Notes under the pieces: generated by a model
Seen by the model: only the letters and a program-made list of their open reading frames with translations
Told to the model about the DNA's origin: nothing
Database searches by the model: none
Position numbers and translations under genes: made by a program
NCBI GenBank assembly: GCA_903937385.1
Contig: CAIZZF010000008.1
Coordinates: 124,001-188,000, forward strand
Source: an uncultured Holophagaceae bacterium
GTDB lineage: Bacteria > Acidobacteriota > Holophagae > Holophagales > Holophagaceae
Direction of reading: 5' to 3'
Length of the DNA: 64,000 nt
In this document: positions 39,406-58,533 of the stretch, piece after piece
Position numbering within the stretch: the stretch's first letter is position 1
Layout of the letters: every line of letters starts with the position of its first letter

Positions 39406-41558
39406 GGCTCCGCCACGCCCTGGTCCTGCTGCTGGTGCTGACGGCCTGCGGCCGCAAGCCGCCGCCGCCGTCCCCGCCAGCCTCGGCGCCCGCGTTTCCC
39501 GTGACCATGGCCTGGACCTGGCATCCCATCGGCCCCCTGGCTGTGATCGAGGGTGAGGTTGCTGAGGCCACGGACCTCGTCCTGGAAGGCAAGTCCATCC
39601 GGGAGCGCCGCTTCGCGGAGCCAGGCCCCCTGCGCTGGGAGTTCTTCCGGCCCCCCGCCGGGGAGGCCGCCGTGCTGCGCACCGAGGACGGCCGGGTGCT
39701 GGCCCGCTTCCAGTTCTCGGACCCGGAAGCGGCCTCGCGCCCCCGTCAGGCTCAGGCGGGCGCACCCTTCCAGGCAGAGCCCCCGCCCGCTCCCATGGCC
39801 CCGCCGGTCCGCACCCCCCAGCCAGCGCCCCTGCCACCACCCCCCTCGGCCCGGGCCGAGACCTACGCTCCGAGCGCCCCCGTGGCACCCCTCGCAGGAC
39901 GCCGCCCCTTTGCCATGCCAAGCACCACCGAGGCCCCGCCGACCCTGCCTGCCCCCGCGCTGCCCCCGGCCCAGGCCCGGGCCGAGACGCGCTACCAGGC
40001 CAGTCCCGTCACTCCCCTCACCGGGCGGAAGCCCTTTGCCCTGCCCAGCACCAACGAGGGGCCTCCCCCGAGGCCCCTGCCCGAGCTGCCCCCGGCCCGG
40101 GCCCGCGCCGAGACCTGGCACCAGAGCTCGACACTGGACCCCCTGCCTGGCCGCAAGCCCTTCACCCTGCCCAGCACCACCGAAGGCCCTGCCACTCGAC
40201 CCGCCCCGGAGCTGCCCCCGGCTCAGGCCCGCGTGGAGACGCGCCTCCAGAGCGCGCCCGTGACACCCCTGCCCGGACGGAAACCCTTCGCCCTGCCCAG
40301 CACCAACGAGGGCCCACCCCCCCGGCCGCTCCCTGAGCTGCCGCCTGCCCACGCCCGCACCGAGACCTGGATTCCGAGCACCCCGGGGACGCCGCTCCCC
40401 GGACGCAAGCCTTTCACCCTGCCCAGCACCACCGAGGGCCCCGCTGTCCGGCCGGCCCCGCAGCTGCCTCCGGCCCGAGCCCGCGCCGAGACCCGGGTCC
40501 CGAACACCCCCGGGACGCCGCTCCCGGGGCGGAAACCCTTCACCCTGCCCAGCACCACCGAAGGCCCCGCCGTCCGGCCCGCCCCGGAGCTGCCCCCGGC
40601 GCAGGCCCGCGCCGAGGCCTCCTTGCGCAGCACGCCCGTGCTGCCCCTTCCCAGCCGGAGGATCCTGACCCTGCCCGGGCCCTCGGAGACCGCAACCCTC
40701 TCGAGCCACGCCACCACCCCTGCGCCCATCCTCCTGGAGACCGCGCCAACCCGACCGCCGCAGCCGATCTTCCCGCCAGGCCAGGTCGGCACAGCTGTCA
40801 CTTGGCCAGGCATGGGCGAGGCGCTGAACCTGACCCGCGGACCCGGCGGCCGCAAGCGCCTGGTGCTCAGCTTCGACGGCGGCTCCAGCGCCGAGGTGGC
40901 CGTCGAAGTGCTGGACCTGCTGAAGGCCCGGGGGCTGCGCACCACCCTCTTCCTCACGGGCGCCTTCATCCAGCGCTTCCCCGCCCTGGTGAAGCGCATG
41001 GCGGCCGAGGGCCATGAGCTCGGCAACCACACCATGAACCACCCCCACTTCGCGCCGGGCATGAAGCGCGACCCGAAGTGGACCCGCGAGCGGGTGCAGC
41101 ATGAGCTCCTGGAGGCGGACGCCGCCCTGCTCCGCGTCGCCGGGAGACCCATGGACCCCCTCTGGCGCGCACCCTACGGCGAGCACACGGCCGAGATCCG
41201 CCGCTGGGCCGAGGAGCTGGGCTACCGGCATGTGGGCTGGAGCGAGGGCGCCGACACCCTGGACTGGGCCACGCCCAACGAGCGCCGCCTCTACCGCACC
41301 GGCGAGGCCATCGTGCAACGGCTGCAGCAACGCCTGAACCGGGACGGCGACGGCATCATCGTGCTCATGCACCTGGGCTCGGCCCGCCGCAGCAGCGACC
41401 GCCCCACGGAGGGCCTCGGGGCCTTCATGGATCGCGCCCGGCAGGAAGGCTGGAGCTTCGTCCCCGTCGGCACGCTGCTCCACGACCTCGGCAAGCCGGA
41501 CTGGGATCCCCGCCAGCGGCTCGCGCTTCTGCGCAGCACCAGCGCCCAGGCCCGCTGA
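39402..41558 (+). CDS. Polysaccharide-deacetylase lipoprotein with 42-residue repeats
   Basis: 718 residues from a TTG start overlapping the previous stop. The N-terminus LVLLLVLTACGRK is a lipoprotein signal with the acylated Cys at 16. Residues 150-401 are six 42-residue repeats rich in Pro (consensus ARAET..., PLPGRKPF.LPST, LPELPPA), with a partial seventh. A NodB deacetylase domain follows (about 480-700): LVLSFDGGSS, HELGNHTMNHP, LWRAPYG and IIVLMHLG. The first motif is FDGG instead of the usual FDDG, so one metal-binding Asp is missing. It probably works on peptidoglycan or an exopolysaccharide at the outer membrane. Confidence 0.85.
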   Translation: MRLRHALVLLLVLTACGRKPPPPSPPASAPAFPVTMAWTWHPIGPLAVIEGEVAEATDLVLEGKSIRERRFAEPGPLRWEFFRPPAGEAAVLRTEDGRVLARFQFSDPEAASRPRQAQAGAPFQAEPPPAPMAPPVRTPQPAPLPPPPSARAETYAPSAPVAPLAGRRPFAMPSTTEAPPTLPAPALPPAQARAETRYQASPVTPLTGRKPFALPSTNEGPPPRPLPELPPARARAETWHQSSTLDPLPGRKPFTLPSTTEGPATRPAPELPPAQARVETRLQSAPVTPLPGRKPFALPSTNEGPPPRPLPELPPAHARTETWIPSTPGTPLPGRKPFTLPSTTEGPAVRPAPQLPPARARAETRVPNTPGTPLPGRKPFTLPSTTEGPAVRPAPELPPAQARAEASLRSTPVLPLPSRRILTLPGPSETATLSSHATTPAPILLETAPTRPPQPIFPPGQVGTAVTWPGMGEALNLTRGPGGRKRLVLSFDGGSSAEVAVEVLDLLKARGLRTTLFLTGAFIQRFPALVKRMAAEGHELGNHTMNHPHFAPGMKRDPKWTRERVQHELLEADAALLRVAGRPMDPLWRAPYGEHTAEIRRWAEELGYRHVGWSEGADTLDWATPNERRLYRTGEAIVQRLQQRLNRDGDGIIVLMHLGSARRSSDRPTEGLGAFMDRARQEGWSFVPVGTLLHDLGKPDWDPRQRLALLRSTSAQAR
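39849..40700 (+). repeat. 126-bp coding tandem repeat (42 residues)
   Basis: Six in-frame copies of a 126-bp unit (39849-40604) plus a decayed seventh to about 40700. The third to sixth copies are the most alike, and alternate copies share variants (PSTNEGPPPRPLPELPPA against PSTTEGPA.RPAPELPPA), which suggests expansion by two-unit blocks. Confidence 0.8.
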
Positions 41559-55122: not shown

Positions 55123-56697
55123 TCATGACGCAGCTGGGGTCTCCAAGCGGCTCTTCCGAGCCCCGTAGAAGGCGTAGATCACCAGGCCGATGCCCAGCCA
55201 GGCGAAGAACCGGTACCAGGTCAGGGCGGGCAGGCCCTTGGCGATCCAGAAGCAGCCAAGGATGCCCAGGGGGGCGATGACCCAGGCGAAGGGCATGGTG
55301 AACTTCCGGGGGGCCTCGGGGCGGCGGTAGCGCAGGATCAGGACGGCGCCGCAGACGATGACGAAAGCGAACAGGGTGCCGATGTTCGCCAGCTCCACCA
55401 CTTCGTCGATGTTGAGCAGGGCCGCGGGGATGGCGACCAGGAGCCCCGTCAGCAGGGTGGCGTGGGAGGGGGTCTTGAAGCGCTCGTGGACCTTGCCGAA
55501 CCAGGGGCTGAGCAGGCCGTCGCGGCTCATGCTCATGAAGATGCGGGGCTGACCCACCTGGTAGACCAGGAGCGCCGCCGTGGTGGCGATGACCGCGCCG
55601 AAGCTGATGACCGCGGCGATGCCGCCCATCTTGTGCTCGGTGAAGATGTAGGCCAGCGGATCAGCGATGCCGCCCAGCCGCGTGTAGTGGATCATGCCCG
55701 TGACCACCAGGGCCACGGCTGCGTAGATCACGGTGCAGATCACCAGGGAGTAGAGGATCCCCCGGGGCAGGTCGTGGCCGGGGTTCCGGCACTCTTCCGC
55801 GGTGGTGCTCACGGCGTCGAAGCCGATGAAGGCGAAGAAGATGATGGCCGCGCCGGACTGGATGCCGGGCCAGCCGTGGGGCACGAAGGGATGCCAGTTG
55901 GCGGGCTGGATGAAGCGGATGCCCAGGCCCACCACCGCCAGGAGGATCAGCACCTTGACCACCACCATGACGCTGTTGACGCGGGCGCTCTCCTTGATGC
56001 CGATGTAGCAGAGCCACGTGATGAGGGCCGTGATGACCACCGCCAGCAGGTTGATGGTGACGGGATAGCTCCCGATGAGGGGCGCGGCCTTCAGGGTGTC
56101 CCAGTTGGCGAAGGTGGCCGCGCCGTTCACGAGCCCGGCCTTGGCCTGGGCCAGGGCCTGCAGCTTGGCGCCAAGGTCCATGGCCGGAACGCCCTGCACC
56201 AGCTTCAGCGCGCTGCGCGGATCCATGCCCAGCCAGCCCGGGATCTCGAGGTGGAACACGGTGGAGAGGAAGCTCCGGGCGTAGTCGCCCCAGGAGATGG
56301 CCACGGCCACGTTGGAGATGGCGTATTCCAGCAGCAGGTCCCAGCCGATGATCCAGGCCATGAGCTCGCCGAGGGTGGCGTAGGCATAGGTGTAGGCGCT
56401 GCCGGACACGGGGATCATGGAGGCCATCTCGGCGTAGGCGAGGGCCGTGAAGCCGCAGATGAGGGCCACCACCAGGATGCTGATGACCAGGGCGGGGCCC
56501 GCGGGCAGGCGACCGTCGGCGAGGTTCCCGGCGGCGGCAGTGCCGATGGAGCTGAAGATCCCCGCGCCGATGATGGCGCCGATGCCGAACATGGTGAGCT
56601 CGAAGGTGCCGAGGGTCTTGCTCAGCTGGTGCTCGGGTTCCTCCGCGCTGGCCCGGAGCTGCTCGAGGGACTTGGTTCGGAAAAGTCGGTTCAGCAT
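55123..56697 (-). CDS. APC-family amino acid permease (cationic type)
   Basis: 524 residues with 12-14 membrane helices and the APC signatures FGIGAIIGAGIFSSIG in helix 1 and FFAFIGFDAVSTTAEECRNP in the middle. It resembles the CAT subgroup of amino acid transporters. A long loop (about 150-195) before helix 5 is typical of CAT proteins. Transport of a basic or neutral amino acid by proton or sodium symport is likely; the substrate is not certain. It is divergent from the mini-ORF repeat array. Confidence 0.9.
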   Translation of the reverse strand: MLNRLFRTKSLEQLRASAEEPEHQLSKTLGTFELTMFGIGAIIGAGIFSSIGTAAAGNLADGRLPAGPALVISILVVALICGFTALAYAEMASMIPVSGSAYTYAYATLGELMAWIIGWDLLLEYAISNVAVAISWGDYARSFLSTVFHLEIPGWLGMDPRSALKLVQGVPAMDLGAKLQALAQAKAGLVNGAATFANWDTLKAAPLIGSYPVTINLLAVVITALITWLCYIGIKESARVNSVMVVVKVLILLAVVGLGIRFIQPANWHPFVPHGWPGIQSGAAIIFFAFIGFDAVSTTAEECRNPGHDLPRGILYSLVICTVIYAAVALVVTGMIHYTRLGGIADPLAYIFTEHKMGGIAAVISFGAVIATTAALLVYQVGQPRIFMSMSRDGLLSPWFGKVHERFKTPSHATLLTGLLVAIPAALLNIDEVVELANIGTLFAFVIVCGAVLILRYRRPEAPRKFTMPFAWVIAPLGILGCFWIAKGLPALTWYRFFAWLGIGLVIYAFYGARKSRLETPAAS

Positions 56698-56754
56698 GGG
56701 GGCCCTGGGAGAAGACCCATGCTACCAGGGGCCTTCCGGGCTTAGTCTGAAGCC

Positions 56755-56889
56755 ATGAGCACGCAGCAGGAGCGAAGTGCCCCTTTGGCGCAGCCGAAGC
56801 CCGCAGGGCGCGGCGCAGGGAGGCTCCGCCTCGGCGAGCGGAGCGCGCCGGAGCACGCCCAGCGTGCGATAGGCGGAGGCGACGCGTGA
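56755..56889 (+). CDS. Mini-ORF repeat unit 1 (44 codons)
   Basis: ATG...TGA encoding 44 residues, Arg/Ala/Gly-rich, starting MSTQQERSAPLAQPKPAG and ending RAIGGGDA. It is the first of three tandem 131-bp units. The start has no good ribosome-binding site, but the unit ends in GGAGG 6 nt before a GTGA overlap with the next unit. Unit 1 and unit 2 encode the same peptide apart from the start codon. It could be a translated leader peptide or non-functional repeat coding; the sequence alone cannot decide. Confidence 0.5.
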   Translation: MSTQQERSAPLAQPKPAGRGAGRLRLGERSAPEHAQRAIGGGDA

Positions 56890-57148
56890 GCACGCAGCAG
56901 GAGCGAAGTGCCCCTTTGGCGCAGCCGAAGCCCGCAGGGCGCGGCGCAGGGAGGCTCCGCCTCGGCGAGCGGAGCGCGCCGGAGCACGCGCAGCGTGCGA
57001 TAGGCGGAGGCGACGCGTGAGCACGCAGCAGGAGCGAAGTGCCACTTTGGCGCAGCCGAAGCTCGCAGGGCGCGCCGCAGGGAGGCTCCGCCTCGGCGAG
57101 CGGAGCGCGCCGGAGCACGCGCAGCGCACGATAGGCGGAGGCGACGCG
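56756..57148 (+). repeat. Three tandem 131-bp repeats upstream of the DUF58 gene
   Basis: The period is exactly 131 bp (56756, 56887, 57018, ending at 57149). 131 equals 45 codons minus the 4-nt GTGA overlap, so the frame restarts in every unit. Within each unit are inverted words (GGAGGCTCCGCCTC, GCGAGCGGAGC). The array occupies nearly the entire 56698-57147 gap between the permease and DUF58 genes. Confidence 0.92.
56886..57020 (+). CDS. Mini-ORF repeat unit 2 (44 codons)
   Basis: GTG...TGA; the start overlaps the unit 1 stop as GTGA and is preceded by GGAGG. It differs from unit 1 by one synonymous change (GCC to GCG) and the start codon, so the duplication is very recent or is being homogenised. 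It ends in the same GGAGG...GTGA junction. Confidence 0.5.
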   Translation: MSTQQERSAPLAQPKPAGRGAGRLRLGERSAPEHAQRAIGGGDA

Positions 57149-57151
57149 TGA
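57017..57151 (+). CDS. Mini-ORF repeat unit 3 (44 codons)
   Basis: GTG...TGA, again chained by GTGA on both sides; its stop overlaps the GTG start of the DUF58 gene. It has four amino-acid changes relative to unit 2 (Pro to Thr, Pro to Leu, Gly to Ala, Ala to Thr), making it the most diverged and perhaps the oldest copy, next to the gene it feeds. Confidence 0.5.
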   Translation: MSTQQERSATLAQPKLAGRAAGRLRLGERSAPEHAQRTIGGGDA

Positions 57152-58098
57152 AGCTCTGGAACGATCGCCGCCTGCGCCTGTCGCTCACGCGGCTGGGGGT
57201 GCAGTACCTGCTGGTCCTGCTGGCGGTGGGGGCCTTCTCGGTGAACACCGGCAACAACCTGCTCTACCTGGTGTTCGCCCTGATGCTGGGACTGTTCCTC
57301 GTCTCGGGCATCCTCAGCCGCCGCGTCCTCCAGGAGCTGCAGGTGACGGGCCTGGAGGCGGGCAGCCTCTTCGCCCGGGTGCGCGGCGGCCTCCGGCTGC
57401 GGCTGCAGGCCACCGGACGCGGACGCCTCCGGGGCCTCGAGCTGCACCTCACCCTGGACGATGCCACCGTGCAGCCGGGCTTCCTGGAGCGGGACACCCA
57501 GACGGGCGAGTCGGTGGTGGTCCTGCATGCCCGGGCGGGCCACCGGGGCTGGACCCGGGTCCGCGCCCTGGAGCTGCGCACCTGCTATCCCTTCGGCCTG
57601 ATGGAGAAGGCCCGAATCCTGGCGCTGGAGGAGTCCCTGCTGGTCCTGCCGCACCCCCGCACCCCCCCGGCCGCGCCCGCCAGCTGGCGGGGGGAGGGCC
57701 GCCACAGCCTCCTGAAGGAAGGGACCAGCAGCCCCGAAGGCACCCGGCCCCTGCGGCAAGGCGACGCGCCGGGCCGGGTCCACTGGAAGCGCACCGCCCA
57801 GCGCGGGCAGCCCTGGGTGCGGACCTTCGAGGAGGACCGGCCCCTGGGCATGCACCTGCGGCTCGACTTGCGGGCCTGGGGCCCCGGCCGGTCCTTCGAG
57901 CGCGAGCTGGAGCGCCTCTCGGGCGCAGTCCTGCAGGCGCGGCTCCAGAAGCGAGCCATCAGCCTGGAGCTGCATGACCCCGTGGGCGTCCGGGAAGTCC
58001 GGGGTCACACGCCCTGCTGGCACGCCCTGGCCCTGGCCCAGGCGACCGGAACCGGCGAGGACACAATCAGCCACGCGGTGGCAGCTCCGCTAAGCTGA
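57148..58098 (+). CDS. DUF58 domain-containing protein
   Basis: 316 residues. Two N-terminal membrane helices (about 18-55) precede a beta-rich region and a DUF58 motif (RPLRQGDAPGRVHWKRTAQRG, near 205-225). DUF58 proteins usually sit beside MoxR ATPase and transglutaminase genes and help assemble or activate envelope complexes; none of those are adjacent here. The GTG start and its ribosome-binding site GGAGG are both supplied by the last copy of the tandem repeat. An alternative internal start is possible, but the first residues KLWNDRRLRLSLT fit the family. Confidence 0.8.
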   Translation: MKLWNDRRLRLSLTRLGVQYLLVLLAVGAFSVNTGNNLLYLVFALMLGLFLVSGILSRRVLQELQVTGLEAGSLFARVRGGLRLRLQATGRGRLRGLELHLTLDDATVQPGFLERDTQTGESVVVLHARAGHRGWTRVRALELRTCYPFGLMEKARILALEESLLVLPHPRTPPAAPASWRGEGRHSLLKEGTSSPEGTRPLRQGDAPGRVHWKRTAQRGQPWVRTFEEDRPLGMHLRLDLRAWGPGRSFERELERLSGAVLQARLQKRAISLELHDPVGVREVRGHTPCWHALALAQATGTGEDTISHAVAAPLS

Positions 58099-58116
58099 TA
58101 GCCCCTGGAGGCTCTG

Positions 58117-58533
58117 GTGTTTGATGATCCGCTCTCCCCGTCCTGGACCCCGCTGCTGGAAGCGGCCTGGCAAGCCCGGGAGCACGCTCATGCCCCGTAT
58201 TCCCACTTTCAGGTGGGCGCCGCCCTCCTCACAGCCACCGGCGAGGTGGTGGCGGGGTGCAACGTGGAGAATGCCGCCTACCCCGTCACCCTCTGCGCCG
58301 AGCGGGGCGCCCTGAGCGCCGCCGTGGCCGCCGGTCTCCGACCGGGCGGGCTGGTGGCCGCGGTGGTGGTCACGGACGTGGCCGAGCTGACCCCGCCCTG
58401 CGGCGCCTGCCGTCAGGCCCTCATCGAGTTCGCAGCCACCCTGCCGGTACTGCTGGCCAACCGGACCAGCCGACGTCTCCATCGCTTGGAAAATCTGCTA
58501 CCACACAGTTTCACGGGCAGCCATTTTCAGTAG
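58117..58533 (+). CDS. cdd: Cytidine deaminase
   Basis: 138 residues. It deaminates cytidine and deoxycytidine. The zinc site is complete: CNVENAAYPVTLCAERGAL (Cys and Glu) and PPCGACRQAL. The GTG start at 58117 follows GGAGG; it lies 18 bp after the DUF58 stop, so the two are likely cotranscribed. Confidence 0.93.
   Translation: MFDDPLSPSWTPLLEAAWQAREHAHAPYSHFQVGAALLTATGEVVAGCNVENAAYPVTLCAERGALSAAVAAGLRPGGLVAAVVVTDVAELTPPCGACRQALIEFAATLPVLLANRTSRRLHRLENLLPHSFTGSHFQ

Follow-up and report, generated by a model that had tools for sequence, protein, structure and literature searches.

A tandem mini-ORF array before a DUF58 gene, probably formed by a Geothrix insertion unit coupled to gene starts

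The three tandem repeats that precede a DUF58 gene in the window (the whole stretch of DNA analysed, 64,000 nucleotides from an uncultured Holophagaceae bacterium) are, judging from sequence comparison, very probably three copies of a non-autonomous insertion unit that enters at start codons and, through translational coupling, lets the gene it has invaded stay expressed. Tandem Repeats Finder places the array at 56756-57151, with a period of 131, 3.0 copies, 97% matches and 0% indels. A sequence-only reading had described three 131-nt units with 44-codon ORFs in which each TGA overlaps the next GTG, and the repeat finder, the ORFs and the sequence itself agree. It had also put GGAGG, a 6-nt spacer and GTGA at the end of every unit, as the sequence confirms (GGAGG-CGACGC-GTGA in all three), and had told units 1 and 2 apart by their start codons (ATG/GTG) plus a single synonymous base (GCC/GCG), which are indeed their sole differences; unit 3 departs from both at more places. 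The features are listed here, with scores from a covariance model (R1) that is described below.

55123 to 56697, minus strand: divergent amino-acid permease gene, across a short promoter region from the array (ORF, Pfam)
56743 to 56748, plus strand: TAGTCT, a -10-like hexamer 6 nt 5' of the first ATG (sequence), suggesting a leaderless-type start
56755 to 56885, plus strand: unit 1, 131 nt, ORF at 56755-56889 with ATG and 44 codons (R1, 84.5 bits)
56886 to 57016, plus strand: unit 2, 131 nt, ORF at 56886-57020 whose GTG overlaps the TGA of unit 1 (R1, 83.4 bits)
57017 to 57147, plus strand: unit 3, 131 nt, ORF at 57017-57151 whose GTG overlaps the TGA of unit 2 (R1, 75.0 bits)
56875 to 56879 and 57006 to 57010, plus strand: the equivalent GGAGG at the ends of units 1 and 2 (sequence)
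57137 to 57141, plus strand: GGAGG, Shine-Dalgarno sequence of DUF58, 6 nt before its GTG (sequence)
57148 to 58098, plus strand: DUF58 gene, 316 aa, GTG overlapping the TGA of unit 3 (ORF list, Pfam; the DUF58 assignment is a narrow pass, 23.7 bits against the Pfam cut-off of 23.4)

At three genes, DUF58, hemC and nnrE, some genomes carry the element precisely at the start codon and relatives lack it. Orthologues of the DUF58 gene were found in 36 of 36 other same-genus genomes searched, one of them as a fragment, and among the 36 readable of 37 genomes the site is filled in 13 and empty in 23 (the fragment, in G034, is left out; G010 counts as filled by 11 nt at a contig end and G024 by a partial unit). 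The proposed count of repeats across these orthologues showed variation between genomes, with no unit in the 23 empty genomes, one to three in the 11 filled genomes whose array is fully readable, and two further filled genomes partly readable. For hemC, seven sites are filled and 18 empty (25 readable among 30 loci, with L273 and L290 scored empty; 39 genomes matched), and for nnrE, six are filled and 19 empty (25 readable among 30 loci; 40 genomes matched). The empty DUF58 site of G023 reads TAGTCT-GGAGCC-ATG-CAG-CTC, whereas filled sites keep TAnnnT-N6/7-ATG, the ATG now serving as the unit's first codon, and the gene resumes as GTG-AAG-CTC or similar. The idea that the unit supplies the start of DUF58 thus stands in part: the Shine-Dalgarno sequence and the GTG do lie at the end of unit 3, but the gene was not startless before, since its own ATG was already at the site and has been split by the unit. 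The start codon is followed by A in 13 of 13 filled and five of 23 empty DUF58 sites, and this A was either brought by the unit or reflects a stop restored by selection. At least seven changes of state fall on well-supported branches of the DUF58 tree (nine by parsimony), and filled and empty states on that tree showed no clustering beyond that of shuffled labels (70-75 of 500). The unit appears to be mobile, judging by how widely it is scattered and how repeatedly a single site switches between filled and empty.

The empty sites fall into two kinds. TAnnnT stands at a spacing of 5-8 in 20 of 23 empty DUF58 orthologues and is present in 18 of 19 empty nnrE sites, whereas at 17 of 18 empty hemC sites an upstream ORF of at least 401 codons has its stop in the ATGA or GTGA with which hemC begins; the one such ORF that was scanned has glutamyl-tRNA reductase domains and falls below the NCBIfam hemA cut-off. 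The unit would thus enter two kinds of start, namely leaderless-type starts, where the hexamer points to leaderless initiation, and operon stop/start overlaps. Among 50 representatives of gene families with the element, 18 carry TAnnnT at a spacing of 5-8, whereas each of nine shifted windows gives 0 or 1 of 50, and an upstream ORF of at least 200 codons (with start codon) ends at the unit TGA in 15 of the 32 representatives without TAnnnT versus one of the 18 with it. A scan for the sigma-70 consensus found no promoter, TAGTCT notwithstanding.

Two observations were made beside these loci. Two weak model matches in the genome of the window (G000:C20:73039-73187, L215) lie directly 5' of hemC, which is matched from C20:73188. 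In G020, nnrE is preceded by an unrelated 32-nt leader (L298), a 10-codon ORF ending in a GTGA overlap with the gene, as if the coupling arrangement had arisen independently.

Position at gene starts is general in the family. Loci were sampled as 80 regions around listed hits and then 50 more, and units were parsed by their first 28 bases. The check that copies elsewhere should end at GTGA or ATGA gene starts came out in favor of the sequence-only reading: 147 of 165 distinct sampled units end in a 4-nt TGA/RTG overlap with a gene or the next unit (111 into an ORF of at least 60 codons and 36 into the next unit), and the remaining 18 comprise 11 without overlap, four running into ORFs shorter than 60 codons and three cut off. 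When units running off a contig or locus are left out, the figure is 147 of 162. As a chance control, other RTGA sites within the sampled loci that close an ORF of 15-200 codons overlap by 4 nt with an ORF of at least 60 codons in 510 of 4061 cases (12.6%). The other reading frames of the unit chain in 43 of 161 and 70 of 157 cases under a looser rule (ORF of 25 codons) that runs into downstream genes, and we give these figures no weight. Unit spacings are 74 (97 units), 131 (27), 206 (7) and 15 other lengths, all of the form 3n-1 by the rule used; at L153, L239 and L242, one-base indels are present and there is no chaining to a gene.

The 111 target genes belong to 50 gene families, and 22 of the 23 family representatives scanned against Pfam and NCBIfam have a match to one or the other, among them hemC, clpX, dnaE domains, nuoB, nuoC, ddl, YmdB, NAD synthase, Mur ligase and methylmalonyl-CoA epimerase. 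For clpX, ddl, YmdB, NAD synthase and the PHP domain of the dnaE-like protein, the profile match starts at most five residues in, so these are true gene starts. Units from genomes that did not feed the model behave similarly. In four such genomes (G060-G063), 17 of the 23 units listed out of 73 matches chain; of the rest, a contig end truncates one, two belong to a class described last, and three have a start codon directly after the unit, though their stop is displaced. For G164, a genome of the sister genus, 16 of 17 matches were read (the unread one is weak), and 10 of these chain. The central proposal, a portable translation-start module that chains in register, is thereby supported, and the module is not local but dispersed at gene starts. 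Copy number, as the sequence-only reading suggested, may tune DUF58 translation.

We propose that the unit works in the following way. Comparison of filled with empty sites shows that it stands exactly at the gene's ATG, so that the old start now opens a short ORF while the opposite end of the unit carries a new RTG. In the sequence, GGAGG is seen 6 nt upstream of this new start, and because the unit length is a multiple of three minus one, the TGA overlaps it by 4 nt. A ribosome would start at the original position, which it would reach on DUF58 via the 5' end of a leaderless mRNA and on hemC through coupling to the preceding gene, would translate the mini-ORF and open the hairpins holding the Shine-Dalgarno sequence, and would then stop at the UGA and restart on the overlapping RTG by termination-reinitiation. 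Since tandem units in the sequence repeat the same step in register, an array would act as a relay. On our best reading the unit persists at start codons because the mini-ORF carries ribosomes on to the displaced start, and the predicted hairpin would make that start depend on such delivery. On this reading the peptide is a by-product, and what has been preserved is the open frame together with the fold.

The family is spread through the genus. A DNA search of the window's own genome found, beyond the array, one clear further copy (G000:C20:105871) and weak ones; the covariance model finds nine matches there. Unit 2 was searched against 60 genomes (its own, 36 of the same genus and 23 others), and all 36 other same-genus genomes match at E <= 0.01; weak matches in six of the 23 others (E 1e-4 to 0.009) we take for chance. 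Many matches span just the first ~75 bases, so the basic unit is 74 nt, and the 131-nt form of the window is this unit with 57 nt inserted near its 3' end. Conversely, six loci (L149, L154, L163, L164, L166 and L167) match positions 64-127 of the 131-nt unit alone, that is, the inserted part without the rest. The single-contig genome G033 holds five consecutive 74-nt units.

Model R1, a covariance model of sequence and structure, was built from 59 distinct 74-nt units. At E <= 0.01 it matches 41 of 41 Geothrix genomes sampled from a larger group (the set that supplied model units includes 37 of them), with 443 matches summed and 1-35 per genome; in G018 and G036 the match is weak. A set of 149 genomes from the phylum contains 26 with matches: 10 of the same genus, the sister-genus genome with its 17 matches, one of another family (G158) and 14 others, whose E values are 8e-5 or worse. 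The copy in G158 (L223) is single and strong (E 1.1e-17), and was either transferred or comes from contamination of a 410-contig assembly. R1 finds no match in G147, from a second genus of the same family. An exact degenerate 33-nt pattern run over genome_contigs returned 33 stretches, all labelled Geothrix, Holophagaceae or Acidobacteria bacterium, with records of G. limicola and G. rubra but no mycobacterial record among them, and searches of plasmids, phages and viral contigs gave no matches to the unit.

Besides its position, the unit has a conserved fold. The 74-nt form forms four hairpins over most of its length. In a first, three-hairpin version of the structure, 12 of 17 pairs had changed on both sides; in the four-hairpin version 16 of 25 had, with 0 of 500 shuffles as high, although the shuffles ignore relatedness and the first hairpin (8 of the 25 pairs) was taken from an RNAalifold prediction on the very alignment tested. 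In this form 94.9% of cells are paired, against 35-50% when the partner is slid, and the fold of a consensus-like unit comes out at -37.4 kcal/mol (z -3.84). For the 131-nt form, both partners had changed in 21 of 44 pairs (again 0 of 500 shuffles as high, with relatedness ignored). The GGAGG columns of the 131-nt form pair with C62 and with CTCC at 70-73 of their own unit in 21-23 of 23 copies, whereas in the 74-nt form AGGAG occupies the 5-nt loop of the last hairpin, immediately ahead of the next start; the Shine-Dalgarno sequence is thus predicted to be buried in a stem in the longer form and exposed in a loop in the shorter. The three units of the window itself show no folding advantage over shuffles (z -1.23, -0.80 and -0.26), so the evidence for the fold is covariation, not energy, and the covariation trace would equally come from hairpins in DNA.

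A more ambitious account of the same data makes the element a start-seeking mobile module with a conserved fold, which would target leaderless transcription starts or operon RTGA overlaps and render leaderless genes Shine-Dalgarno-led and coupled; the 74-nt form would be its open and the 131-nt form its closed state, and the extra 57 nt and the copy number would set expression across the genus. We regard this as unlikely. Slightly less probable again is that the element is a genus-wide regulatory RNA cassette, whose hairpins sense temperature, a ligand or a protein and gate the Shine-Dalgarno sequence, the mini-ORF serving attenuation-like control. Strong covariation and the difference between a buried and a looped Shine-Dalgarno sequence are what such a cassette would show; however, its targets are a mixture of 50 gene families, its presence differs between close relatives (the DUF58 proteins of G000 and the empty G023 are 97% identical), and Rfam covariance models gave 0 matches at E <= 1 within 56000-58200.

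Against coupled insertion, the reading we prefer, stands that no mobility enzyme was found; the Y1 transposase family PF01797 occurs in four of 41 same-genus genomes only (the control search gave matches in 5 of 14 named genomes). In G020 there are six equal-scoring Y1 transposase matches and one partial match, and 37 of the 41 have none. Palindromes of the REP/BIME type, moved by a RAYT-type Y1 transposase and left at start codons through loss of other insertions, would account for a palindromic, dispersed element and for the occurrence of the inserted part of the 131-nt form elsewhere without the rest. We consider this quite improbable, and rejected a RAYT/Y1-moved element, because the element is found in 41 of 41 genomes and PF01797 in four; REP elements are not known to carry a coupled ORF.

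Farther down in probability comes a dispersed and duplicated family of small functional peptides (44 or 25 residues). In its favor, the ORF is open in nearly every copy: a stop falls within codons ~2-20 of the ORF frame in one of 157 unit heads, as compared to 34 and 14 of 157 in the other forward frames. However, stops are found in just 7, 3 and 3 of 157 unit heads in the reverse-strand frames, and because these frames are also mostly open, the open ORF frame is weaker evidence than it appears. The absence of ORF-frame stops among the 59 distinct 74-nt units follows from their selection, and the count over 157 unit heads is the fairer one. Those 59 units carry 117 synonymous and 367 non-synonymous changes, against 131 and 347 expected if even, and show no sign of selection on the peptide of the 74-nt form; on this codon substitution pattern we rejected a selected peptide. 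Moreover, the 44-residue peptide of the window has no Pfam match, and lengths range from 18 to more than 60 codons. It is just as hard to credit that the triplication is an assembly artefact of a draft in 30 contigs, since several base differences set unit 3 apart from units 1 and 2 and tandem arrays also occur in single-contig G033, though the exact copy number in the draft could be an assembly matter.

The kind of element is known; what is new to us is the family itself, the phylum, the fold and the leaderless-type targets, and nothing on the family, the fold or leaderless-type targets in Geothrix was found in the open-access literature, which most subscription journals lie outside. In Neisseria, the dispersed repeat REP2/CREN stands just upstream of genes and brings a ribosome-binding site; it is not known to carry a self-chaining ORF with stop/start overlap. 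In mycobacteria, MIRUs occur in tandem copies. The idea of a chaining module is not new, as PMC12548453 describes MIRUs in like terms: short mycobacterial repeats, apparently mobile, that insert at start codons (Supply et al. 1997, as cited there), with an ORF coupled to the gene at -4 nt, limiting harm to expression. The Geothrix unit resembles them in being dispersed in genomes, in lying at start codons and in the 4-nt overlap of its ORF stop with the gene start. It differs in belonging to another phylum and, when set beside the MIRU description, in its co-varying hairpins that include the Shine-Dalgarno sequence and in its many leaderless-type targets. By likeness to that description, our best reading of the element is that of a MIRU-like coupled insertion unit by function. 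The TAACTGA repeats of Beggiatoaceae differ in being heptamer arrays, and the abstract of PMC4679880 mentions no coupled ORF. Translational coupling through short upstream ORFs, as presented in PMC12548453, is the mechanism proposed here, although the ORFs there are native and single rather than a dispersed module.

The clean empty-site comparisons support the parallel with the mycobacterial solution, and because a MIRU-like answer to insertion at start codons would exist in another phylum, that answer looks general for small repeats within expressed genes. The system opens to test whether termination-reinitiation alone keeps genes expressed, what moves the units and whether a leaderless start attracts them. 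It matters for annotation, because many Geothrix gene 5' ends are preceded by mini-ORFs with seemingly meaningless peptides, and a coupling element that occurs naturally, can be chained and comes in open and closed forms may serve as a genetic part.

The remaining class of copies ends in GTCA rather than RTGA (L261, L238, L259, L240 and L134, the first being G000:C26:99813 in the window's own genome) and does not fit the coupled-insertion explanation. These copies lie directly 3' of lepA or nuoD (NCBIfam names in L261, L259 and L134) and are followed by a duplicate of the last codons of lepA or nuoD, taken from the gene's internal ATGA; their stop-to-stop distances are 179, 179, 161, 137 and 155, all 2 modulo 3. 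Elsewhere in the window, 39848-40620 holds a 126/252-bp tandem repeat of about six 126-bp copies.
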